Source: Streptomyces violaceusniger Tu 4113
GTDB lineage: Bacteria > Actinomycetota > Actinomycetes > Streptomycetales > Streptomycetaceae
Direction of reading: 5' to 3'
Assembly: GCF_000147815.2 (NCBI RefSeq)
Contig: NC_015957.1
Span: 3,534,001-3,598,000 of the forward strand
DNA: 64,000 nucleotides
The notes below the pieces were generated by a model that was given only the letters and a program-made list of their open reading frames with translations, was not told where the DNA came from and did no database searches. The translations under genes and the position numbers were made by a program. Of the stretch, positions 8,851 to 20,673 are shown piece by piece. The stretch's first letter is position 1. Each line of letters starts with the position of its first letter.

Positions 8851-8939
8851 GTGAGCCTACGGGCCGGGTGGCTGCGGCTCGGAAAGAGGCCGAAACGATC
8901 GGCGACAGCGTCTTGCGCCGGGGCTTAATGACGTTTGTA

Positions 8940-8957
8940 GGCGGAAATGATTACGCC
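8940..8957. promoter_or_regulatory. Weak Zur-box-like palindrome upstream of the PLP operon
   Basis: GGCGGAAATGATTACGCC is an imperfect palindrome whose AAATGATT core equals the centre of the actinobacterial Zur consensus, but the outer bases do not match (about 9 of 17). It lies ~50 bp before GTG 9006. Only a candidate. Confidence 0.25.
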
Positions 8958-9005: not shown

Positions 9006-10514
9006 GTGGTGGGTGTGCCCCTGTACCTGCGGCCGCGACTGGAACCACCGCTCACCGGGCTGCTGGACGCCGGACCGTTCCTGCACTCCCTTGTCGACGC
9101 GCTCGGATCTCCGCTCAACGTGCTGCTCCCGGAGCGGATCGCCGAGAACACCGAACGGTTTCGCGACGTCTATCGCCGTCACCACCTCGCCGGGCGGGTG
9201 TACTTCGCGCACAAGGCGAACCGGTCCAGCTCCCTGGCGCGGCGGCTGGCGGCGGAGGATCCGGCCGCGGTGGGGGTTGACGTGGCCTCGCTGGGGGAGT
9301 TGCGGCACGTCCTGGGGTGCGGCTTCACTCCGGAGCGGATCATGGCCACCGGGCCCAAGGATCCGGAGTTCCTGTGGCTGGCCGCCCGCGTCGGGGTGAC
9401 AGTGAACCTCGATTCACGCGGCGAGCTGGAGCAACTGGCCGATCTGGTACGCAAGTACGCCTTGCCCCGGGTCGATGTCCTCCTGCGCCTCTCCGAGTTC
9501 GAGTCGGCCGCGGGTCCCGAGGCGTCCGGTGTGCGGGTGCTCTCACGGCGCAGCCGCTTCGGCTCCCCGGCAGGGGAGGCGGGCGAGCTGCTGTCCGCTG
9601 TGGAACGCCACCGTGACGCCGTGGAGCTGACCGGTGTCGCGTACCACCTGGACACCACCGGTTTCGCCGAGAAGGTCCGCGCGCTGGAACGCTGTGTGAT
9701 GGTCATGGACGAGTGCCGGGCCCGGGGCTTGGCGCCGCGCGTCGTCGACATCGGCGGCGGCTTCGGGGTCGGCTACGTCGCCGACGCCGGTGAGTGGGAG
9801 AGCTACACCACCGCGCTGACCGAGGCGGTGCTCGGCACCCGTCCGGCCCTGACCTGGCGCGGGCACGGCTACGGGCTGCGCAACGAGGGCGGCACGGTGC
9901 GCGGGGCCGCGGCGCTCTACCCGGCGCACCGCCCCACCGCCGGGCCCGGCTACCTCGATGAGCTGCTCTCGCTGTCCGCACCCGCGCTGGGCCGCCCGTC
10001 GGCCACCCTGCTCCTGGAGCACCTTTACGACCTGTGTGCCGAACCGGGCCGGGCCCTGGTCGACCAGTGCGGGCTCTCGCTGGCGCGAGTCCTGGACGTA
10101 CGGCGTACGGGGGAGGGGGCGGGGCCGGGGGAGTATCTGGTGCGTCTCGGCATGAACGCCGGGGACGTGAGCCTGGAGGAGCACGGTGTACTCGTCGACC
10201 CCGTCCTGCTGCCCCGTACCGGAGGGGGAGGGGAGAGAGACGAGGAACCGGTGGGGGTGTACCTCGTCGGCAATCTCTGTCTGGAGGCCGATCTGATCAC
10301 GCGGCGCATGGTTTTCCTCCCCCGGCTGCCGCGCACCGGCGACCTGCTGGCCTTCGCCAACACCGCGGGCTATGCGATGGACTTCCACGCCCATCACGCA
10401 CAACGGCAGCCGGTCGCCCGCACGGTCGCGGTCGTACGGGAGGGGGGCTCCTGGCGCTGGTGCCTGGACGAGGAGTACTGGCCGATCACCAACGCGGGGG
10501 GAGCGTTGTCATGA
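9006..10514 (+). CDS. Y4yA-family fold-type III PLP-dependent decarboxylase-like enzyme
   Basis: A 502-residue protein of the alanine racemase N/ornithine-DAP decarboxylase fold. K70 in YFAHKANRSS is the Schiff-base lysine. DIGGGFGVGY is the glycine-rich phosphate loop, and CEADLITRR-like and cofactor-binding C-terminal segments follow. NCBI calls this branch Y4yA family after a Rhizobium symbiotic-plasmid protein. The reaction is unknown; decarboxylation of an amino-acid-derived intermediate is the family expectation. GTG 9006 follows GGGAAGGGA closely. It is first in a three-gene operon with ATGA overlap to the next gene. Confidence 0.85.
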   Translation: MVGVPLYLRPRLEPPLTGLLDAGPFLHSLVDALGSPLNVLLPERIAENTERFRDVYRRHHLAGRVYFAHKANRSSSLARRLAAEDPAAVGVDVASLGELRHVLGCGFTPERIMATGPKDPEFLWLAARVGVTVNLDSRGELEQLADLVRKYALPRVDVLLRLSEFESAAGPEASGVRVLSRRSRFGSPAGEAGELLSAVERHRDAVELTGVAYHLDTTGFAEKVRALERCVMVMDECRARGLAPRVVDIGGGFGVGYVADAGEWESYTTALTEAVLGTRPALTWRGHGYGLRNEGGTVRGAAALYPAHRPTAGPGYLDELLSLSAPALGRPSATLLLEHLYDLCAEPGRALVDQCGLSLARVLDVRRTGEGAGPGEYLVRLGMNAGDVSLEEHGVLVDPVLLPRTGGGGERDEEPVGVYLVGNLCLEADLITRRMVFLPRLPRTGDLLAFANTAGYAMDFHAHHAQRQPVARTVAVVREGGSWRWCLDEEYWPITNAGGALS

Positions 10515-11848
10515 GGTACGACAGCATCACGGAGGCCATCGGCAACACGCCGCTGGTACGCATCGACCCGGCCGTGCACGGCCTGCGCCACATCGACCTG
10601 TACGCGAAGCTGGAGATGCTCAACCCGTTCGGCTCGGTCAAGGACCGGCCCGCCTGGAACATGGCCCTGCCTCATCTGGAGGCCGCGGGCCGGCGCGGTG
10701 AGACGGTCGTGGAACTCTCCAGCGGCAATACGGCCAAGGCTCTCGCCCTGCTGGCGGGCATGCACGGGCTGCGGTTCAAGAGCGTGACCAACCGGATGCG
10801 GGTGCCGGAGATCAAGGAACTGCTTCTGCTGCTGGGCGCCGAGATCGAGGAACTGCCCGGGCAGAGCGAGTGCCTCGACCCGACCGACACCGACGATCCC
10901 CTGACCCGCTTCCACCAGGCGCTGACGGAGCCGGGCAGCGCGTATCTGCACACCGATCAGTACTTCAACCCGCGCAACACCGAGGCGCACGCGGCGGGCA
11001 CCGGCCCGGAGATCGTCAAGGACCTGGACGGGCGGGCGCCCGACTGGTTCATCGCCTGCGTCGGCACGGCCGGTTCGTCGACCGGCGTGGCCAGGGTGCT
11101 GCGCGAGCACGACCCGGAGGTACGGGTCCTCGGCCTGGTCGCCCACAAATCGGACTTCATCCCCGGCATCCGCACCATCGACGAGGTGCGCCAGGTCGGC
11201 CTGTTCGACCCGGCGACGTACGACACGATCGAGTCGGTGACCTCCGAGGAGGCCATCGACGGCATGCTGACGCTCATCCGGCGCTGCGGACTGCTGTCGG
11301 GACCGACCGGAGGCGCCGCCTACCAGGGGGCGATCCGCCATCTGCGGGCGGTGGACGCGGAGTTGACGGATCCGGGGTTCCGCCGGACAGCGGTCTTCAT
11401 CGTCTGCGACCGGGCCGAGAGCTATCTGAGCTATGTGCGCCAGCGCCGGCCCGAACTCCTGGGGCAGCCCCGCCGCGGACACTTAGCCGCCGCCCTCACC
11501 GGCGCCGAGGTGGCGGCCCAGGCCAAGGTCATCGGCGTCGACGACGCCCGGCGGTGGATCGCCGACGCAGAGCCGCCCCCGCTCGTGGTCGATCTGCGGG
11601 GCCCGCACGCGTACGCCGCGCTGCACATCGAGGGCTCGGTCAACTTCGTCGACGAGCTTTTCGAGGAACTCGTCCGGGGCGGACTGCCCTTCAGCAAGCG
11701 GCGGCCGGTGCTGCTGGCCTGCCCGGTCGGCGAGAAGTCCGCCCGGTACGCCGCGCTGCTGACCCGGATGGGGCATCCCGATGTGCGCAGCCTGGCCGGC
11801 GGCATCGTCGCCTGGCGGGACGCGGGCGCGCCGCTGGTGAGGGAATGA
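10511..11848 (+). CDS. Cysteine synthase-like PLP enzyme with C-terminal rhodanese domain
   Basis: A 445-residue fusion. Residues ~1-325 are a fold-type II beta-family synthase (PLP lysine K44 in PFGSVKDRPAWN; SGNTAKAL substrate loop; GTAGSSTGVARVL phosphate loop) resembling SbnA/CysM-type enzymes. Residues ~335-445 are a rhodanese domain with active-site C404 (LACPVGEKSARY). It overlaps both neighbours by ATGA, so the three proteins are probably made together. A beta-replacement enzyme joined to a sulfur-transfer domain suggests sulfur incorporation or diaminopropionate-type chemistry (inference). Confidence 0.88.
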   Translation: MRYDSITEAIGNTPLVRIDPAVHGLRHIDLYAKLEMLNPFGSVKDRPAWNMALPHLEAAGRRGETVVELSSGNTAKALALLAGMHGLRFKSVTNRMRVPEIKELLLLLGAEIEELPGQSECLDPTDTDDPLTRFHQALTEPGSAYLHTDQYFNPRNTEAHAAGTGPEIVKDLDGRAPDWFIACVGTAGSSTGVARVLREHDPEVRVLGLVAHKSDFIPGIRTIDEVRQVGLFDPATYDTIESVTSEEAIDGMLTLIRRCGLLSGPTGGAAYQGAIRHLRAVDAELTDPGFRRTAVFIVCDRAESYLSYVRQRRPELLGQPRRGHLAAALTGAEVAAQAKVIGVDDARRWIADAEPPPLVVDLRGPHAYAALHIEGSVNFVDELFEELVRGGLPFSKRRPVLLACPVGEKSARYAALLTRMGHPDVRSLAGGIVAWRDAGAPLVRE

Positions 11849-13071
11849 ACGCGGTGGACCCCGTGTGCGGGGAGGAGCGGGCCGAAGCGGCGGACTGGCA
11901 GCGCGAGGCGCGGGAGCAGTTCCCCATCATCGCCGCCCACCCCGAGCTGGCCTACCTCGACAGCGCGGCCACTTCCCAGAAGCCCAGAGCCGTCCTGGAA
12001 GCCGTCCAGGCATATCTGACGACCTCGAACGCCAACGCGGGGCGGGGCACCTACCCGTGGGCCAACCGCACCACGGAACTGGTGGAAGGGACCCGCCAGA
12101 GGGTCAAGGACTTCCTCGGCGACCCGGAGCCGCAGCGGTCCGACGTCCACTTCACCAGTGGCACCACCGAAGGGCTGCGCACCATCGCCCGTGACTGGCT
12201 CACCACGTACCTCGCCGACGGTGACGAGATCCTCGTTCCGTTCGGCGACCACCAGGCGAATCTGGACCCCTGGCTGGAGGCCCGGCGGCTGCTGGCCGAC
12301 CGGGGAATCGACATCCGCGTGCGGGCACTGCCGTACCAGGTGGAGTCGGGTGACTACCACCACCGGGCGCTGGACCGGGTCGTCGGCCCGCGCACCCGCT
12401 TCGTCGCCGCCACGCACATCCACCACGTGTACGGCGGCGACATGAACGTGCACCGCATCCGTGCCGCCGTCGGCCCGGACGTCCCGATCGCTCTGGACGC
12501 CGCCCAGAGCGTGGGCCATCTGCCGGTCCGCGTCGACCAGTCCACGCTCGACGTGGACTTCGTGGTCTTCTCGGGGCACAAGGCCCTCGCGCTGCCCGGC
12601 TCCGGGGCGGTCTGGGCACGGAACTCGCGAGGGCCGGTGTTCCGGCCCGGCGGCTGGCACGGCACCCCCAACACCGTGGGCATCGCGTCTCTGGAAGCCG
12701 CGTTCGACTGGCTGGACACGGTCGGTACGGACCGGATCGCGCGCTGGACCGCCGCCCTCACGACCCGGCTGACCGACGGGCTGCGACGCCTTGCCGCGTA
12801 CGAGATCCTGGGCTGCCAGTCCAGCCTGGCCGCCGGCTCCGTCGTCCCCGCCGCGCAGCGGCGCCACGGCATCGTCACTTTCCGGCACCACGACATCCGT
12901 TCGGATGACCTCGGCTTCATTCTTTTCAGCCATGGCTTCATGGTGCGGGCCGACAGTCTCTGCCAGGCCGGGGCGGCCGAGAAGGACGGCTCGGTGCGGG
13001 TCAGTCTGCACGTGTACAACACCGTGGACGAGATCGACCGCCTGCTGACTGTACTCGCGTCGCTCATGTAA
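11845..13071 (+). CDS. Class V aminotransferase / cysteine desulfurase-like enzyme
   Basis: A 408-residue fold-type I PLP enzyme of the SufS/CsdA branch. K246 in VFSGHKALAL binds PLP. HIHHVYG and DAAQSVGHLPV are conserved cofactor segments. C373 (RADSLCQAG) aligns with the mobile-loop cysteine of cysteine desulfurases, though the RxGHHC context is changed. It could mobilise sulfur for the rhodanese domain encoded just upstream, or act as a beta-lyase/aminotransferase. It is the last gene of the operon; the stop lies 8 bp before a Zur-like box. Confidence 0.87.
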   Translation: MNAVDPVCGEERAEAADWQREAREQFPIIAAHPELAYLDSAATSQKPRAVLEAVQAYLTTSNANAGRGTYPWANRTTELVEGTRQRVKDFLGDPEPQRSDVHFTSGTTEGLRTIARDWLTTYLADGDEILVPFGDHQANLDPWLEARRLLADRGIDIRVRALPYQVESGDYHHRALDRVVGPRTRFVAATHIHHVYGGDMNVHRIRAAVGPDVPIALDAAQSVGHLPVRVDQSTLDVDFVVFSGHKALALPGSGAVWARNSRGPVFRPGGWHGTPNTVGIASLEAAFDWLDTVGTDRIARWTAALTTRLTDGLRRLAAYEILGCQSSLAAGSVVPAAQRRHGIVTFRHHDIRSDDLGFILFSHGFMVRADSLCQAGAAEKDGSVRVSLHVYNTVDEIDRLLTVLASLM

Positions 13072-13079
13072 AGCTGGAA

Positions 13080-13094
13080 TGAAAACCGTTTCCA
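13080..13094. promoter_or_regulatory. Zur box upstream of the methyltransferase gene
   Basis: TGAAAACCGTTTCCA is a 7-1-7 palindrome with a single unpaired position, close to the consensus TGAAAATGATTTTCA. TACATT (13099-13104) may be the -10, placing GTG 13110 at or near the transcript start. Confidence 0.65.
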
Positions 13095-13109
13095 CCTGTA
13101 CATTCGGCG

Positions 13110-13919
13110 GTGTCCGCGACAGGTGACAGACGGAAGAGGTGGCGCGACCAGATGGGCGTGAGCATGGCGACGGCCAAAATGTGGGTGGAGCGCTGGGAGC
13201 GACAACAGCAGCACTACGCCGTCGACCGCGAGGAGCGGTTCACCGTGGTCGCCGATGTTGTCGAACACGTTACGGCCGGCCGCGACCGGCCTCTCGTCCT
13301 GGACCTGGGCTGCGGACCCGGCTCCCTGGCCGCCAGACTCGCCGAGCGCCTGCCGGACGCGGAGATCGTCGCCGTCGACATGGACCCGCTCCTCCTGGAA
13401 CTCGGCCGCACCCACCACGCGGGCGCCGCCCGCTACGTCGACACCCTGATCGGCGACGACGGCTGGACCGACGCCCTCGAACTGGGCCGCCCCCTGGACG
13501 CGGCCGTCTCGACGACAGCCCTCCACTACCTCCCCGAGCCGACGCTCCTGTGCACGTACCGCCGTCTCGGGTCACTCCTGCGCTCCGGCGGTGCCCTCGT
13601 CAACGGCGACCACTTTCCCCAGGACGGCCCGCTCTGCTCGGAGCTCACCGCGCATGTGGGGCGCCGCCGGGCCGAGCGGGCAGGCAGTCACGGCCACGAG
13701 GACTGGGAATCCTGGTGGGCCGCGGCGGCCCGGGACCCCGAACTGGCCGACCTGTTCACCCAGCGTGAGCAGCGCCGCCCCGCAAGCGGCGGTGGCAACG
13801 AGGGCGGCCACCTGACCGCGGCCCGCCATGCGGAACTGCTGCGACAGGCGGGCTTTGGCCAGGTCGCCCCGGTCTGGCAGTTCGGCGACAGCCACGTCCT
13901 TGTGGCGGTCAAGGACTGA
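13110..13919 (+). CDS. Class I SAM-dependent methyltransferase
   Basis: A 269-residue Rossmann methyltransferase. Motif I LVLDLGCGPG at 62-71, acidic motif II (IVAVDMDP) and motif IV (AAVSTTALHYLP) are visible. The substrate is unknown. The start is GTG 13110 if leaderless; ATG 13152 or 13164 are alternatives. A Zur-like box overlaps its promoter, so it should be expressed in zinc limitation. It follows the PLP operon by only 38 bp and could act on the product of those enzymes (inference). Confidence 0.85.
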   Translation: MSATGDRRKRWRDQMGVSMATAKMWVERWERQQQHYAVDREERFTVVADVVEHVTAGRDRPLVLDLGCGPGSLAARLAERLPDAEIVAVDMDPLLLELGRTHHAGAARYVDTLIGDDGWTDALELGRPLDAAVSTTALHYLPEPTLLCTYRRLGSLLRSGGALVNGDHFPQDGPLCSELTAHVGRRRAERAGSHGHEDWESWWAAAARDPELADLFTQREQRRPASGGGNEGGHLTAARHAELLRQAGFGQVAPVWQFGDSHVLVAVKD

Positions 13920-14013: not shown

Positions 14014-14574
14014 TTACAGGGCCAGGCTCATCAGGATCTCGTCCCGGTCGTCGCCGGGGGCCACCCGCAGTGCCCCCGGCCATCGGCCGATCTCCGCCCA
14101 GCCCAGCTTGGCGTAGAACTCCTCCAGCCCCAGACCCGCCCTCGCGGCGAGCCCCAGCCGTTCCAGGCCCATCTCGTCGCGTGCGATGCCGGGGACGCGG
14201 CGCATCAGCGCGGCGCCGATGCCCAGACCGCGGAAACGGGTGTGCGTCTGGACGTGGTTGACCACGCCGCAGTGTGTGACGAGCGGATGTGGATCGCGGC
14301 GAAGGATGAGCCAGCCCGCGAGCACACCCTCGACGGCGGCCACGAGCAGCCTGCCGCGTCGCGGATCAAGTCCGTGGACGATCTGGTCCACCACTGGTCC
14401 GACGTCCCGCGTGCTCACGGGCGGCAGCGGGAAGCCGCCCGCGAGAACCGCCCCGCCCGCGTTGCTCACGGCCGTCCAGCAGTCGATCAGCTCCCGCCTG
14501 AGGGCAGGGGTGATCTCCTGGGGCCGGGAGAACTGTGCGAACTCGGGTGACTTCACCGTCTCGTGCGCTGCCAT
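14014..14574 (-). CDS. GNAT-family N-acetyltransferase
   Basis: A 186-residue single-domain GNAT protein. Acetyl-CoA-binding motif A reads RFRGLGIGAALMRR at ~118-131, followed by motif B with LEEFYAKLGWAEIG typical of small-molecule or amino-group acetyltransferases. It is cytosolic. It is convergent with the methyltransferase gene. No promoter motif was recognised. The substrate is unknown. Confidence 0.85.
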   Translation of the reverse strand: MAAHETVKSPEFAQFSRPQEITPALRRELIDCWTAVSNAGGAVLAGGFPLPPVSTRDVGPVVDQIVHGLDPRRGRLLVAAVEGVLAGWLILRRDPHPLVTHCGVVNHVQTHTRFRGLGIGAALMRRVPGIARDEMGLERLGLAARAGLGLEEFYAKLGWAEIGRWPGALRVAPGDDRDEILMSLAL

Positions 14575-14653
14575 GACGAGCAGCCTGCCAGACGGCGCGG
14601 CCGCGCGTGGGTCACCTCTGCTCCTCCCCTCAAAGGCAGGTCGGCGCCGTCGT

Positions 14654-15046
14654 TCAGGTGGGTTGGGGCGTTGCCTTCCTGGCTCCCCACCGTCGGGTGC
14701 GGTAGGTGCCCGCCAGCCGGCAGACGATGTAGATGGTGAACGAGATGGTCGTCACGTAGGGGCTGATGGGGATGGAGCTGCCGAGAGCGAGCAGGATGCC
14801 GCCCTCGATCGAGGCGACGGCGAAGACCACACTGAGCACCGGCAGCAGCACGGGCGACGCGGTGATGCGGGCGGCCGCCGCGGCGGGGGTGACGACGAGG
14901 GTGAGGACCAGCAGCGCGCCGACGATCTGCACCGACAGGGCGACCGCGAGTCCGAGCACGATCATGAAGGCGATGGACAGTGCGTGCACCGGCACCCCGC
15001 GGGCCTCGGCGACGTCCGGATCGGCGCTGGCCGACGAACTGTGCAT
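14654..15046 (-). pseudogene. znuB: Truncated ZnuB-type metal ABC transporter permease
   Basis: The 130 residues match only the C-terminal part of ZnuB/ABC-3 permeases: EARGVPVHALSIAFMIVLGL, VQIVGALLVLTLVVTPAAAA and two further membrane segments. Intact ZnuB proteins are ~280-290 residues with eight or so helices; the first half is absent and no znuA or znuC lies alongside. A Zur-box-like site remains ~50 bp upstream of the fragment. It is most simply a relic of a Zur-controlled zinc importer after a deletion. Confidence 0.75.
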
Positions 15047-15093
15047 GACGCTTGCCTCCCGCTACACAGGCATCGATCTGTTGCGCATGCTAG

Positions 15094-15110
15094 TTGAACA
15101 TGACATCCAT
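15094..15110. promoter_or_regulatory. Zur-box-like site upstream of the znuB relic
   Basis: TTGAACATGACATCCAT matches 13 of 17 positions of the extended Zur consensus TTGAAAATGATTTTCAT. Confidence 0.5.
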
Positions 15111-15218
15111 GACCAGGATTGTTGTGCTGTCACATGCCCGGCTGCAGGTGGGGGTGGGGAGCGACGGCGCGTTGTCCGAGCGGTTACGCATGGCGCCCGC
15201 TTCGCGGCACGCCGTTGG

Positions 15219-16442
<1,224 letters not shown>

Positions 16443-16449
16443 CGGGCGG

Positions 16450-16620
16450 TCAGCCCTCGGGGCTCAGCAGTCCGCGCCGATAGGCGGGGACGAGGTTGCG
16501 CGGCACCCGGTGTTCGCGGCCGTCGATGGTGATCGTCACCAGTTCCGGCGTGTTCGCCTTCCACTGGGCGCGGCGGTGGCGGGTGTTGCTCCGGGACATC
16601 TTCCGCTTGGGCACGGCCAT
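16450..16620 (-). CDS. rpmF: Ribosomal protein bL32, zinc-free form
   Basis: A 56-residue protein beginning [20 protein letters not shown], diagnostic of L32. The CxxC pairs that bind zinc in the common actinobacterial L32 are absent; the C-terminus is instead [18 protein letters not shown] and onward. Such paralogues replace the zinc-bound form when Zn is scarce, freeing the metal. It is read away from the Zur box at 16.67 kb and is followed by the COG0523 GTPase. Confidence 0.92.
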
Positions 16621-16668
16621 GACGTCAAGGGTCCTTTCCTGTTCGGCGGGTGGTCACCTGCAGCCTAT

Positions 16669-16691
16669 ATGAAAATGGGTACCGTTTCCAT
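16669..16691. promoter_or_regulatory. Zur-type palindrome between rpmF and the CobW-like gene
   Basis: A 23-bp interrupted palindrome begins ATGAAAATG and ends CGTTTCCAT, with 8 of 11 pairs matching. It lies between two divergent genes and can control both. The same 23-bp layout recurs at 18769-18791. Confidence 0.65.
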
Positions 16692-16734
16692 GTAGTCTCC
16701 GCGGTGACACTGTGACGTCGTCATCCAGGAGGAG

Positions 16735-16785
16735 ATGTGCCGCTGGTGCTGCTACGGGTGCGCAGAACCGCCCATGCCGTCGTGA
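16735..16785 (+). CDS. Possible cysteine-rich 16-residue leader peptide
   Basis: ATG 16735 directly after AGGAGGAG opens MCRWCCYGCAEPPMPS, with four Cys in nine residues. An overlapping GTG frame from 16737 (24 residues) ends at 16811, sharing GTGA with the start of the CobW-like gene. Either frame could couple translation to the downstream gene. A Cys-rich leader in a Zur-controlled transcript could respond to cysteine or zinc. No homologue is recognised, and the ribosome-binding site is very close to the ATG. Confidence 0.35.
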   Translation: MCRWCCYGCAEPPMPS

Positions 16786-16807
16786 CCGCCCTTGCCCAGG
16801 TGGCGGA

Positions 16808-18022
16808 GTGAGCGCCGGTGCGAACGCGAGCCGGGGTCTCCTGGGCCTGGTGTGCGGTAACACCCCGGAGGTCCGGGGGCGCGTACTGGACCTGCTGCGG
16901 TGTGCCTCGCCCGACGCGCTGGTGCTCTCGGTCTCGGTCCACGCCGACGGGACGGGGCGGTACCCCTTCGTACAGCGCTTCGTCATGGGCGGTGAGGAAC
17001 GGCGGCGCGCCTCGCTGTGCCAAGGAGCGACCGGAGACCCGGCTGTGATCATCCGGCAGGATCTCGACACCATCGCCCGGACCGCCTCGCGTCCGCATGT
17101 CGTGCTCGCGCTCCCTGACACCGTGGACACCGCGCCGTTTCTCGCCGAGCTGTGGCGGACCCCACTGGGCAGGACTCCGCTGTCGCACCACTACGAACTG
17201 GCCCCGACCGCCGTCGGCGTGGACCCCGGCCGCCTGCTCAACGATCTGCGCTGTGTGCACCGCGCCACCCGCGTCTTCGGTCACGACCCGACTGCCGCGC
17301 CCCTCACGGTCGCCGAAGCCGCCGCCCGCCAATTGGAGGCCGCCCAGGTGATGGTCCTGCGGGGCGGGCCGGGGGATGGGGACGGCCGCCGGGAAGGGTG
17401 CCGCGCCCTGCTCGGCCATCTCAACCCGTCGGCGGTGGTGCATCTCGACTCGGACGACGCCGATGTCACCGCGCTGACGGCTCTGGCGCGGTCCGACTCC
17501 GGCTGGAGCACGGCCGGACCGGCCGACCGTCTCGACGTCGTCGCCCCCGTCATACGCCGCCGTGGCATCGACCACGGCGTGACCTCGGTGCTCTGGCGGT
17601 CCCGGCGCCCGCTGCATCCCGAGCGGCTGGCGGCGAGCCTGCCGCGCGTCATGCCGTCGGTGATACGCAGCCGCGGACGCCTGTGGATGGCCACTCGCCC
17701 GCGGACGGTCATCTCCTGGCGCTCGGCCGGGCGCCACCTCGAACTGCACGAGGCGGGAGGCTGGTTGGAGGACGGGGACACCGTGGCATGGCGCGCCGCC
17801 TCGCCCCAGCGCCGGACGCTCGCCTCGTGGTACTGGGACGACTACTACGGCGAACGGCGCAACGAGATCGTCTTCACCGGTGCCGACCTGGACCTGGACC
17901 GGCTGCGGGCCGCGCTGGACTCCGCCGTGCTCGACGACGGTGAACTGGCCCTCGGCGCCGACCGCTGGGCCCGCCTGCCCGATCCGCTGCTCGGCGACGC
18001 GGCGCCGGGCCCGGAGAGCTGA
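16808..18022 (+). CDS. COG0523-like protein lacking Walker A (pseudo-GTPase)
   Basis: A 404-residue protein with a clear CobW C-terminal domain (VTSVLWRSRRPLHPERLAAS; the RSRGRLWMATRP segment; final IVFTGADLDLDRLRAALDSA). The N-terminal Rossmann region survives, but the expected GxxGxGKT is GLLGLVCGNTPEVRGR and the CxCC motif is lost. It therefore probably does not hydrolyse GTP and may be a partner or zinc carrier (inference). GTG 16808 overlaps a short upstream frame. The gene is read from the Zur-type palindrome at 16.67 kb and ends in a 13-bp hairpin. Confidence 0.82.
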   Translation: MSAGANASRGLLGLVCGNTPEVRGRVLDLLRCASPDALVLSVSVHADGTGRYPFVQRFVMGGEERRRASLCQGATGDPAVIIRQDLDTIARTASRPHVVLALPDTVDTAPFLAELWRTPLGRTPLSHHYELAPTAVGVDPGRLLNDLRCVHRATRVFGHDPTAAPLTVAEAAARQLEAAQVMVLRGGPGDGDGRREGCRALLGHLNPSAVVHLDSDDADVTALTALARSDSGWSTAGPADRLDVVAPVIRRRGIDHGVTSVLWRSRRPLHPERLAASLPRVMPSVIRSRGRLWMATRPRTVISWRSAGRHLELHEAGGWLEDGDTVAWRAASPQRRTLASWYWDDYYGERRNEIVFTGADLDLDRLRAALDSAVLDDGELALGADRWARLPDPLLGDAAPGPES

Positions 18023-18040
18023 CACGGCACCGTGAGGGCG

Positions 18041-18071
18041 TGGCCGGCCTCGACGGTGTCGAGGCCGGCCA
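18041..18071 (+). terminator. Strong hairpin after the CobW-like gene
   Basis: TGGCCGGCCTCGA (18041-18053) pairs perfectly with 18059-18071 around a CGGTG loop, 18 nt after the stop. Confidence 0.85.
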
Positions 18072-18143
18072 CGACGGTGTCGGCCTCGCCGCTGCGCGGG
18101 GCGGTGTGTGGGGGCGTCGCCGGATCTCGTGCTGGGGTGGGTG

Positions 18144-18173
18144 GCCGGGCCGACCGACGGGAGGCGGCCCGGC
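18144..18173 (-). terminator. Hairpin after rpsN
   Basis: GCCGGGCC (18144-18151) pairs with GGCCCGGC (18166-18173) just downstream of the S14 stop on the minus strand. Confidence 0.55.
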
Positions 18174-18178
18174 GATGG

Positions 18179-18484
18179 TCACCAGCTGCTCTTGGTCACT
18201 CCGGGGAGTTCGCCCGCGTGTGCCATTTCGCGCAGGCGGATGCGGGAGAGGCCGAAGGCGCGCAGGTGGCCGCGGGGGCGGCCGTCGATGGAGTCGCGGT
18301 TGCGTACGCGGGTGGCGCTGGCGTCGCGGGGCTGGCGGCGCAGTTCCCGCTGGGCGTCGAGTCGTTCCTCCGCCGAGGCGCGGGGGTCGGCGATGAGCGC
18401 CTTCAGTTCGGCGCGGCGTTTGGCGTGACGCGCCACGATCACCCGTCGCTGCTCGTTCTTTGCGATCTTGCTCTTCTTGGCCAT
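18179..18484 (-). CDS. rpsN: Ribosomal protein uS14, long zinc-free form
   Basis: A 101-residue S14 of the long class ([40 protein letters not shown] near the C-terminus). The ~61-residue zinc-binding S14 has two CxxC pairs; none is present here. The start ATG shares one base with the L28 stop, so the two are translationally coupled. The pair is transcribed away from the Zur-type box at 18.77 kb. Confidence 0.95.
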
Positions 18485-18720
18485 CAGACCTTCCCTCCCC
18501 GGGCGCGGATGCGGGCCACGGCGGCCTCGATGCCGATCGTGTCGACCGTCTTGATGGCCTTGGTGCTGAGGGTGAGGCGGATGTGGCGGCCTTCGCTCGG
18601 CAGCCAGTAGCGCTTGTGCTGGATGTTGGGGTCGAACCGGCGCTTGGTGCGGCGGTGGGAGTGGGAGATGTGGTGGCCGAAGCCGGGCTGTCGGCCGGTG
18701 AGTTGGCAGTGGGCGGACAT
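18484..18720 (-). CDS. rpmB: Ribosomal protein bL28, zinc-free form
   Basis: A 78-residue L28 ([20 protein letters not shown] then [13 protein letters not shown]). The CxxC pairs of the zinc form are missing. ATG 18720 is preceded by GAGG at a suitable distance; the in-frame extension upstream runs through the Zur-type box and is not coding. It is the first gene of the L28-S14 unit divergent from L33-L31. Confidence 0.95.
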
Positions 18721-18768
18721 GGTTCCTCTTTCTCGTGCGGGTTGCGACGGCAGCACCGTATCAGCTAA

Positions 18769-18791
18769 ATGAAAATGAAAATCGATCCCAT
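18769..18791. promoter_or_regulatory. Zur-type box between the rpmB and rpmG operons
   Basis: A 23-bp site beginning ATGAAAATG and ending GATCCCAT, with a direct TGAAAA repetition that gives two overlapping half-sites. For the + strand TATGCT (18793-18798) is a -10 seven nt before ATG 18806, implying leaderless rpmG mRNA. It can serve both divergent ribosomal protein operons. Confidence 0.65.
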
Positions 18792-18805
18792 GTATGCTGT
18801 CGTCC

Positions 18806-18970
18806 ATGGCACGCAATGAACTACGCCCGATCATCAAGCTGAGGTCCACCGCGGGCACCGGCTACACGTATGTGACCCGCAAGAACCGTCGGAACGACCC
18901 CGACCGGATGACCCTGCGCAAGTACGACCCCGTCGCCGGCCGCCACGTCGACTTCCGTGAGGAGCGCTGA
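18806..18970 (+). CDS. rpmG: Ribosomal protein bL33, zinc-free form
   Basis: A 54-residue L33 ([40 protein letters not shown]) without the CxxC pairs of the zinc form. It is the first gene of an operon with L31, a COG0523-like protein and S18. The promoter is leaderless and lies next to the Zur-type box. Confidence 0.96.
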
Positions 18971-18975
18971 CCGCC

Positions 18976-19233
18976 ATGAAGCCCGGCATTCACCCCGCGT
19001 ACCGGCCCGTCGTCTTCCGTGACCGGTCGGCCGACTTCGCCTTCCTCACCCGCTCCACCGCCACCAGCGACAAGTCCGTGGAGTGGCAGGACGGCAACAC
19101 CTATCCGGTCATCGATGTGGAGATCTCCTCGGCGAGCCACCCCTTCTACACCGGCAACCAGCGCGTCGTGGACACCGCGGGCCGCGTCGAGCGGTTCGAG
19201 CGGCGCTACGGACGCGGACGGGGGGACCGGTGA
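18976..19233 (+). CDS. rpmE2: Ribosomal protein bL31 type B, zinc-free form
   Basis: An 85-residue type B L31 ([40 protein letters not shown]) lacking the CxxC motif of type A L31. It follows L33 by 5 bp and its stop overlaps the GTG of the COG0523-like gene (GTGA). In Bacillus and Streptomyces, type B L31 displaces zinc-bearing L31 under Zur derepression. Confidence 0.96.
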
Positions 19234-20396
19234 GCGTGACGGAGGGGCGGCTGCCCGTCGCCATAGTCGGCGGGCTGCACGCCGACGCGCGCCGGGCGGC
19301 CGTCGAGGAGATCCTGCGCACGGTGCCCGGCTCCGTGGCGCTGCACCACGACCTGTCCGCCGCCACCGACCGCGCCGTGCGCCGCACCGTGCGCGATGCC
19401 TCGGGATCGCTCGGCGAGGGCGAGGCGCCGCTGGTGAACGACTGCGCGTGCTGTGCGCTGCGCGAGGACATGGTCCCCGAACTGCTGCGCCTGGCCACCG
19501 GGGGCGGCCACCGGCTCGCGGTCGTCGAGCTGTGGGAGTCGGTCGAGCTCCAGGCCATGGCCGCCGTCATCGCGGCCGAGGGCGCGCCGCTGGAGCTGAC
19601 CGGGGTGGCCACCGCGGTCGACCCGGCCCTGATGGTGCCGTATCTCGCCAACGGTGACGACCTCGCCGATGTGGGCTTCGCCGCCGCCCCGACCGACCAG
19701 CGCACCGTCGGTGACACGTTCGCCCGGCAGTTGGAGTACCCCACCGTGATCGCCGTCGCCGAGGACGAGACGTGCGAGGAGTCCGCGGACGACGGCGATC
19801 TCGCCCTGCTGACCCAGCTCACTCCGGGCGCACGGCAGGTGCGTGTCGGCGATGGGGCTCTGGTGGCGGCTCTGCTGGCCGGGTTCGATGTCGAGGCGGC
19901 GGCAGCCCGTCAGCATCCGGCGTGTGCGCTGCTGCCGCAGGAGAGCGAAGAACACGGGGTGAGCACCCTGGTCTGGCGCCGTGACCGCCCCTTCCATCCG
20001 GATCGGCTGTATGAGGCGCTGGAAGACCTGAGCTGTGCCGCCGCCCGCAGCCGGGGGCGCTTCTGGCTGGCCGACCGGCCCGACACCCTGCTGTCGTGGG
20101 ACGCGGCGGGCGGCGCCCTGTGTGTGGAATCCGCCGGGCCCTGGCTGGCAGCGCTGCCGGACGCCGCCTGGGACATGGTGCCGGCCGAACGGCGGGTGGC
20201 CGCTTCGATGGACTGGCATCCCGAACACGGCGACCGCTGTCAGCACATGACCTTCACCTCGCCCGGCCTCGACCGCGAAGGTCTGGTCGCCCTGCTGGAT
20301 TCGTGTCTGCTGACCGACGTCGAGTACGCGGCGGGGCCGGACGGCTGGAAGAAGCTGTCGCACGCCTTCGACGAACTGCTCGACCCGGTGTCCTGA
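19230..20396 (+). CDS. Second COG0523-like protein lacking Walker A but keeping CxCC
   Basis: A 388-residue G3E-related protein. The nucleotide loop is degraded to [13 protein letters not shown] at 13-25, without GK(S/T). The metal-binding CACC (C72, C74, C75; [11 protein letters not shown]) is kept, and the CobW C-terminal domain ([31 protein letters not shown]) is complete. It thus retains zinc-binding potential without obvious GTPase chemistry, the converse of the 16.8-kb paralogue, which lost both. GTG 19230 is translationally coupled to L31. Confidence 0.85.
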
Positions 20397-20430
20397 ACGC
20401 GGACGGGCACCGTACGGAAAGGAACTGATC

Positions 20431-20673
20431 ATGTCCCGACGCATCGGCACCAAGCGCCCGGACCCCAAGCGTCGCCGTGTCAACCCGCTCGACGCGGCGG
20501 GCATCACCTACGTGGATTACAAGGACACCGACCTGCTGCGGAAGTTCATCTCCGACCGCGGCAAGATCCGCAGCCGCCGGGTGAGCCATGTGACGCGCCG
20601 GCAGCAGCGCCAGATCGCCCGCGCCATCAAGAACGCCCGCGAGATGGCCCTGCTCCCCTACGGCTCCCGATAG
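20431..20673 (+). CDS. rpsR: Ribosomal protein bS18, zinc-free paralogue
   Basis: An 80-residue S18 ([34 protein letters not shown]). Standard actinobacterial S18 has CxxC and a further Cys; this copy has none. GGAAAGGA precedes ATG 20431. It ends the L33-L31-COG0523 operon and is followed by an 18-bp terminator hairpin. Confidence 0.95.

Follow-up and report, generated by a model that had tools for sequence, protein, structure and literature searches.

We analysed a four-gene cassette in a 64,000-nucleotide stretch of the 11.14-Mb Streptomyces violaceusniger Tu 4113 genome (the window: NC_015957.1, positions 3,534,001 to 3,598,000; G000:C3:3534001-3598000). Three genes for pyridoxal phosphate (PLP) enzymes, namely a Y4yA-type decarboxylase-like enzyme, a CysK-like enzyme with a fused rhodanese domain, and a class V enzyme resembling SufS, are followed by a methyltransferase gene behind a box for the zinc regulator Zur. 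The cassette, its catalytic residues and the Zur box are conserved among relatives. Our preferred reading, to which we give a little less than an even chance, is that the cassette directs the zinc-starvation biosynthesis of a small aminopolycarboxylate-type zinc ligand made without non-ribosomal peptide synthetases (NRPS), kin in kind to aspergillomarasmine and ethylenediaminedisuccinate (EDDS). An NRPS-independent zinc ligand had been guessed at in a first-pass annotation of this DNA; the Zur site at the methyltransferase promoter and the conserved, NRPS-independent gene set themselves have good support from sequence.

Taken in its fullest form (see below), this reading implies a class of NRPS-independent zinc ligands that would be widespread and could well escape standard cluster finders. 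If true, the product would be a bacterial counterpart of aspergillomarasmine with a clear induction cue, zinc depletion, and thus easy to look for, and both the Y4yA family and the bacterial PALP-rhodanese fusions would gain a function. Aspergillomarasmine strips zinc from metallo-beta-lactamases, hence its interest.

As the annotation had described, the three PLP genes overlap at ATGA (10511-10514 and 11845-11848), and Pfam agrees with its gene identities (Orn_Arg_deC_N, PALP plus Rhodanese, Aminotran_5, then Methyltransf_25; Table 1). Pfam finds no NRPS or polyketide synthase among the four cassette proteins, to which that search was confined within the window. It finds no IucA/IucC synthetase among them either, the flanks of the 80 loci described below lying outside that search; a plain IucA/IucC siderophore reading was dropped because the cassette encodes no such synthetase. 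None of the four proteins reaches an NCBIfam cut-off among the matches shown, and all four look, by sequence, like subfamilies apart from the named ones.

Table 1. Features of the cassette and its surroundings, in window positions.
Feature	Position	Strand	Basis
Promoter-like block: GGCTTAA, TGTAG, then GGAAATGAT (8943-8951), possible degenerate Zur half-site	8920..8951	+	By reading; recurrence in relatives
Y4yA-type fold-III PLP decarboxylase-like enzyme, 502 aa	9006..10514	+	Pfam Orn_Arg_deC_N 3.3e-27
CysK/CysM-like PLP enzyme with C-terminal rhodanese domain, 445 aa	10511..11848	+	Pfam PALP + Rhodanese
SufS-like class V PLP enzyme, 408 aa	11845..13071	+	Pfam Aminotran_5 5.8e-66; best PDB sequence relatives SufS
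Zur box AATGAAAACCGTTTCCACC	13078..13096	.	21.4 bits; strict core at 13080-13094
TGTACATT, extended -10-like element right after Zur box	13097..13104	+	By reading
S-adenosylmethionine-dependent class I methyltransferase, 255 aa from ATG 13152 (GTG 13110 possible)	13152..13919	+	Pfam Methyltransf_25
GNAT acetyltransferase, frequent cassette neighbour	14014..14574	-	Pfam Acetyltransf_1 3.8e-10
Zinc-starvation island: ABC-3 permease fragment, CobW, CobW_C proteins, S14, L28, L31, S18	14654..20673	.	Pfam

A Zur box conserved before the methyltransferase gene

Relatives came from one scan of species genomes and are almost all Streptomyces. The 80 named loci are the best 80 of 115, with distant cassettes under-sampled; locus genes were called with our own codon-usage caller and families assigned by protein clustering, some calls being truncated or split (the class V gene in L065 and L099, the CysK gene in L161). 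Four loci share a genome with another locus or the window (L002/L052, L004/L080, L006/L091 and L001/window). L001 does not enter the residue or box counts; each of the remaining three pairs may count double where the total is 83, 89, 92 or 94, and counts over the 80 named loci are free of duplicate-genome pairs. Length filters removed short proteins ahead of the residue counts. The first three genes stand together in 78 of the 80 loci, the other two (L060, L068) stopping at contig edges, and all four genes were called in 73. The seven loci with no called methyltransferase are L060, L068 (contig edge), L052, L080, L084, L098 and L109.

The Zur motif was trained, with the palindrome forced, on 71 upstreams of L28, L31, S18 and CobW genes only, and came out as AATGGAAATCATTTCCATT, a Zur-box-like palindrome. 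Trained thus without the methyltransferase or the operon's first gene, it bears out the good Zur box claimed ahead of the methyltransferase (Table 1). For comparison, mononucleotide-shuffled upstreams give 99% and 99.9% quantiles of 7.4 and 11.9 bits, and sites of at least 10 bits number 189 in the 1.60 Mb of the loci, true boxes counted in. The spacing changes, however: the annotation gave a 38-bp gap, the one that goes with a GTG start at 13110, and the start most often called in relatives corresponds to ATG 13152, which makes the gap 80 bp.

A box of at least 10 bits precedes the methyltransferase in 70 of the 73 loci where that gene was called, also far from zinc genes. The three exceptions are L091, at 7.8 bits, and L103 and L110, which have none there but whose first gene is preceded by sites of 26.6 and 8.1 bits, respectively. 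Among loci with no called methyltransferase, a box of 15-19 bits follows the class V gene in L052, L080 and L109 and none does in L084; L098 could not be scored at this place. Among 89 loci, in which some genomes appear twice, there are 19 where the box overlaps the class V stop codon, yet it is kept despite its shifted position. Both L109 and L148 have a Zur box before a different gene in the methyltransferase's place, in L148 a small gene after the class V gene.

The strict 15-mer pattern TGRAAAYSRTTTYCA, written after the motif was seen, matches the whole genome exactly once, at the core of this box. Only three sites genome-wide lie within one mismatch of it: this one, one before genes reading as znuA, znuC and znuB with a FUR-family gene, and one before a NikA-like SBP_bac_5 importer that falls below its family cut-off (L186:6573-10116; G000:C3 about 4204572-4208115). 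A looser pattern matches the two strands of the same genome 60 and 71 times, against 4 and 7 for a reversed control, so the three near-perfect sites are not the whole regulon. To judge from its sequence and conservation, the box at the methyltransferase promoter is almost certainly a functional Zur site. The TGTACATT element beside it may act in that promoter; in many relatives the box is followed by TGTAGATT or something close to it, though not where the box overlaps the stop codon. An inverted repeat, CACCTGT...ACAGGTG (13094-13134), lies in the methyltransferase leader just past the box and is variable among relatives.

The annotation also saw a weak Zur-like core before the operon, GGAAATGAT. 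This part fared less evenly: the trained motif does not match it (the best site in the window's Y4yA upstream scores -6.6 bits, with a median of -5.9 in shuffled upstreams), but the half-site GGAAAYGAY is found in the 150 bp ahead of Y4yA in 42 of 80 cases (the window and 79 loci), against 1 in 1157 sequences upstream of other genes, from which known zinc genes were excluded. That pattern was picked post hoc, and relatedness among the loci means that they are not independent. The 8920-8951 block would be a plausible promoter.

Catalytic residues and a candidate pathway

Aligned over 470 columns with a rhizobial protein that bears the Y4yA family annotation, the Y4yA-type protein is 28% identical to it; it retains the residues of fold-III decarboxylases, with K70, H214, C425, E427, D429 and Y456 invariant in 94 of 94 aligned relatives. 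It carries the signature CL..D, NT.GY.MD, in which C425, L426, D429, N452, T453, Y456, M458 and D459 are invariant in the same 18-sequence alignment, annotated rhizobial Y4yA included, from which the signature was picked; the library results contain no curated Y4yA model. Against the NCBIfam LysA (diaminopimelate decarboxylase) equivalog it scores 109.7 bits, below the cut-off of 297.9. The gene has an in-frame stop in two genomes (L130, L133, L147), and some cassettes may be decaying or misread.

In the CysK-rhodanese protein, K44, N73 and T74 of the CysK part and C404 of the rhodanese part are invariant in 92 of 92 aligned relatives. The best full-length structural match of its model is aspergillomarasmine A synthase (8h4q), whose chain is named 'Rhodanese domain-containing protein' and shares the architecture of PALP followed by a C-terminal rhodanese domain. 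By sequence the whole protein finds 8h4q at 4.3e-25 over residues 14-379; the rhodanese part alone, as query, does not recover it at 1e-6. The best sequence relatives of the PALP domain are CysM / O-phosphoserine sulfhydrylase, although the NCBIfam CysM cut-off is not reached (162 vs 394 bits) and the cassette enzyme has the extra rhodanese domain. R221 aligns with a residue of the M. tuberculosis O-phosphoserine sulfhydrylase that we take to be R220 in native numbering; we rejected it as proof of O-phosphoserine use because the O-acetylserine enzyme 2jc3 carries the same arginine. Ordinary cysteine biosynthesis was likewise set aside as sole reading, since no equivalog cut-off is reached and the gene is tied to the decarboxylase-like gene and the Zur box.

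The SufS-like enzyme keeps the PLP lysine (K246) and the loop cysteine (C373, aligned with that of SufS) in 89 of 89 aligned relatives, window included, as the annotation had it, and H136, R368 and R385 are equally invariant. These residues (Lys, His, two Arg and loop Cys) occupy positions matching those of SufS/CsdA cysteine desulfurases, although the protein falls short of the NCBIfam sufS cut-off (234 bits against 475.1). A search of 5.8 billion proteins returned at least 994 matches at E<=1e-50 among 8000 candidates scored, and the source names among the best 120 matches listed are aminotransferase class V, cysteine desulfurase and selenocysteine lyase.

The reactions that we infer would run as follows. 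The CysK-rhodanese enzyme would eliminate phosphate or acetate from an activated serine to give aminoacrylate and add the amine of an amino acid to it, yielding an N-(2-amino-2-carboxyethyl)-amino acid. Its 2,3-diaminopropionate (Dap)-type centre would be decarboxylated by the Y4yA-type enzyme to an N-(2-aminoethyl)-amino acid, the ethylenediamine core of a ligand. The SufS-like enzyme might then modify this core or supply sulfur via the rhodanese cysteine, and the methyltransferase, with the Zur box at its promoter, would methylate it as zinc falls. The product would bind zinc, and the cassette would be expressed under zinc starvation. A diamine-type zinc ligand is the best inference, since those PALP+rhodanese enzymes whose activity is known make C-N bonds, with O-phosphoserine as substrate (PMC12751119), and the Y4yA-type enzyme keeps its fold-III decarboxylase residues. 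The annotation had left the product as sulfur- or diamine-containing; the diamine side is now favoured, and the SufS-like gene and invariant rhodanese cysteine keep sulfur possible. A fuller version, that of a bacterial aspergillomarasmine-type zincophore with a PLP-rhodanese synthase, Y4yA decarboxylation to an ethylenediamine-like ligand, a possible desulfurase-rhodanese sulfur relay and Zur-controlled methylation, is more doubtful and put forward only tentatively.

Several observations weigh against the diamine-ligand reading, and the first of them lead to its strongest rival. Sulfur is suggested by the invariant desulfurase residues of the SufS-like enzyme and by the rhodanese cysteine, and CysM is the nearest relative of the PALP domain. 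The desulfurase might instead persulfidate the rhodanese cysteine (C404), letting the fused CysK domain make a C-S bond and, after decarboxylation, a methylated ligand of the aminoethyl-thiol type. This route would account for the pairing of the CysK-rhodanese and class V genes in 78 of 80 loci and in the divergent cassettes L150-L152, and for a rhizobial cysteine synthase that lacks both the rhodanese domain and an adjoining class V gene (see below). On the other side, a serine acceptor and a cysteine donor would merely regenerate cysteine, so an unusual acceptor is needed, and the characterised PALP+rhodanese enzymes make C-N bonds. It is for the desulfurase residues, the rhodanese cysteine and the CysM proximity that we hold the C-N reading just short of even and treat the sulfur route as unlikely but next in line.

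The remaining points against the diamine ligand concern zinc. A Zur box of at least 10 bits lies upstream of the first gene in just 10 of 79 loci, the window not among them; no Zur box lies close to the cassette in L084 and L149, and in the divergent L150-L152 it is weak or absent. No zinc sign outside the cassette was found in 41 of 80 loci. Importer genes do not co-occur significantly with the cassette among 199 genomes (23/45 vs 60/154, p=0.17), nor do strict importer orthologues (3/11, p=0.71).

Gene neighbourhoods and the remaining rivals

Such box positions would also fit a zinc response limited to the methyltransferase, with the three PLP genes under their own promoter and zinc starvation adding methylation of their metabolite or of an unrelated one. 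We think this improbable. The box sits just before the methyltransferase in most loci, and in L148 before that different small gene; however, strong boxes do stand upstream of the first gene in L060, L085, L103 and L106 (in L060 and L106 the region is shared with a divergent gene), and the Zur-like half-site recurs at the first promoter. In L110 a Zur box, SBP_bac_5 importer genes, the Y4yA, CysK-rhodanese and SufS-like genes, two putative ligases, a major facilitator superfamily (MFS) exporter and the methyltransferase follow one another in one direction. L083, grouped with it, has a Zur box before a GNAT gene or importer genes leading into the cassette. L084 carries the same ligase and MFS insert; on its copies, the first insert protein is an ATP-grasp by Pfam and the second has only weak ATP-grasp-like NCBIfam matches.

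Least probable is an intracellular product of zinc stress, whether a thiol/amine buffer or a toxic amino-acid analogue with GNAT self-protection, rather than a metallophore: the canonical cassette lacks a transporter and a GNAT family gene lies in the flank of 33 of 80 loci, often outside the operon, but against it stand the MFS exporters of L110 and L084, importer genes in L110, L046 and L060 (in the latter two a Zur box lies between a divergent SBP_bac_5 importer and the cassette), zinc-uptake-like ATP-binding cassette (ABC) genes shortly after the cassette in L109, and zincophore-type marker genes beside four of the 80 loci. In L109 (Paractinoplanes) the order is another methyltransferase-like gene, one more gene, then the ABC genes, named by look, with Zur boxes. 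The markers are salicylate synthase or thiazolinyl imide reductase family genes, near the cassette in L048, L063, L079 and L106; such genes are typical of coelibactin-type clusters. The GNAT gene mostly adjoins the cassette, either converging on it beyond the methyltransferase or lying ahead of it in the same orientation.

The zinc island that the annotation placed after the cassette is there, with CobW, CobW_C proteins, S14, L28, L31 and S18. Its boxes at 16674-16692 and 18774-18792 score 23.9 and 27.7 bits, both outside the strict pattern. The ABC-3 permease piece (14654-15046, 130 aa, profile positions 152-254 of 258) is apparently a remnant. Across the loci, zinc-regulon families, named by clustering with window genes (CobW, L28, S14, L31, S18) or by look (FUR, ZnuB), occur in the flank of 28 of 80, and any zinc sign outside the cassette in 39, a tally for which importer loci were listed by hand. 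The annotation had held that homologous operons lying mostly away from zinc genes would speak against its view. The 41 loci lacking such a sign go part of that way, yet the cassette brings its own Zur box almost throughout. Of 199 Streptomyces genomes sampled, 45 carry the CysK-rhodanese gene (our own counted, one match partial); the SufS-like gene occurs in 5 of 396 genomes sampled from the phylum (our own counted), and the Y4yA-type gene, at a looser cut-off, in 24 of 394 genomes of the class, 6 of the 24 holding only distant relatives at 36-41% identity; the cassette is thus patchy in Streptomyces and rare outside.

Two further neighbours were seen. In L047 the cassette is directly preceded by a YcaO/nitroreductase/S15-peptidase cluster that also has ABC genes and a small precursor-like open reading frame (L047:223-8140; Pfam on L047 only). 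The block occurs in 9 of 80 loci (L047, L050, L051, L053, L055, L061, L064, L067, L069), with a 27-33-bit Zur box listed near the precursor-like frame in 7, and is a candidate for making a Zur-controlled ribosomally synthesised and post-translationally modified peptide, possibly a metal ligand. L039 has an insertion (14228-16749) that separates its class V gene from its methyltransferase gene and encodes two proteins, one Lant_dehydr_C and one LANC_like.

Cousin operons and known systems

The description of such a cassette was not found in the titles and abstract openings retrieved from an open-access library, subscription journals and preprints falling mostly outside that scope. By word count, 'methyltransferase' is absent from PMC6103462 and PMC5472717, and 'cysteine synthase' also from PMC5472717. 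A rhizobial zinc paper (PMC7029138) has, in its main text, zero mentions of zincophore, opine, cysteine synthase, decarboxylase or PLP.

A Sinorhizobium operon encodes a Y4yA family enzyme (28% identical to that of the window), a cysteine synthase family protein (35%), an opine dehydrogenase family protein, IucA/IucC and an MFS protein. Its cysteine synthase, at 336 aa, is too short for a rhodanese domain, and no class V gene adjoins it; the rhizobial operon thus lacks the rhodanese and SufS-like parts that the cassette has. In another family of the class, L150-L152 carry a divergent cassette with SufS-like, Y4yA-like and CysK-like proteins at 37-49% identity, the rhodanese domain being confirmed by Pfam in L150 only. 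Between their SufS-like and Y4yA-like genes lies a gene for an extra protein of about 430 aa, in which an N-terminal part that has no assignment precedes a heavy-metal-associated domain at the C terminus; the domain scores above the Pfam cut-off in L151 and just below in L150. Other Streptomyces (L153-L157; families scanned in L153, the rest by look) have genes for a VioC/GntD-like oxygenase, an SbnB-like dehydrogenase, Y4yA-like and CysK-like enzymes and a MATE exporter, possibly for another Dap-based product. Genes resembling a peptide-type ABC importer stand beside this operon.

The methyltransferase was compared with BelI/CysG, the metal-dependent carboxylate O-methyltransferases of belactosin and cystargolide, which have a His-His-Asp metal motif (PMC11408123). 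The cassette enzyme has H-Y at the H-H position, and the Asp lies outside the aligned stretch; membership was rejected on this incomplete motif.

Aspergillomarasmine A synthase (PDB 8h4q, 8h4h) condenses O-phosphoserine with aspartate, and Fda4 of fusadapamide biosynthesis, of the same PALP+rhodanese architecture, uses Ala (PMC12751119). The cassette enzyme shares that architecture with the fungal synthase but is only 24% identical to it (root-mean-square deviation 12.8), and its PALP domain is nearer to CysM; the fungal systems are described, in the excerpted text of PMC12751119, without a Y4yA decarboxylase or SufS-like partner. A review names three Zur-controlled metallophore systems: coelibactin, EDDS and pseudopaline (PMC6103462). 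Coelibactin, from an S. coelicolor cluster, shares the regulator Zur (PMC6103462), whereas NRPS, salicylate and thiazoline enzymes are all missing from the cassette itself. [S,S]-EDDS of Amycolatopsis japonicum is a zinc-repressed, Zur-controlled chelator (PMC9252823, PMC6103462); its diamine core would fit condensation plus decarboxylation, EDDS being compared here by its published description. Staphyloferrin B (SbnA, SbnB, SbnH), Fur-controlled in S. aureus, joins a CysK-like enzyme acting on O-phosphoserine to a PLP decarboxylase (PMC12414870), a logic to which we liken the CysK-like and decarboxylase-like pair of the cassette. Unlike staphyloferrin B and the rhizobial operon, the four cassette proteins include no SbnB-like enzyme and no IucA/IucC. 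Set beside these systems, the cassette is best classed, on its predicted proteins and Zur box, as a putative Zur-controlled, NRPS-independent metallophore-like pathway.

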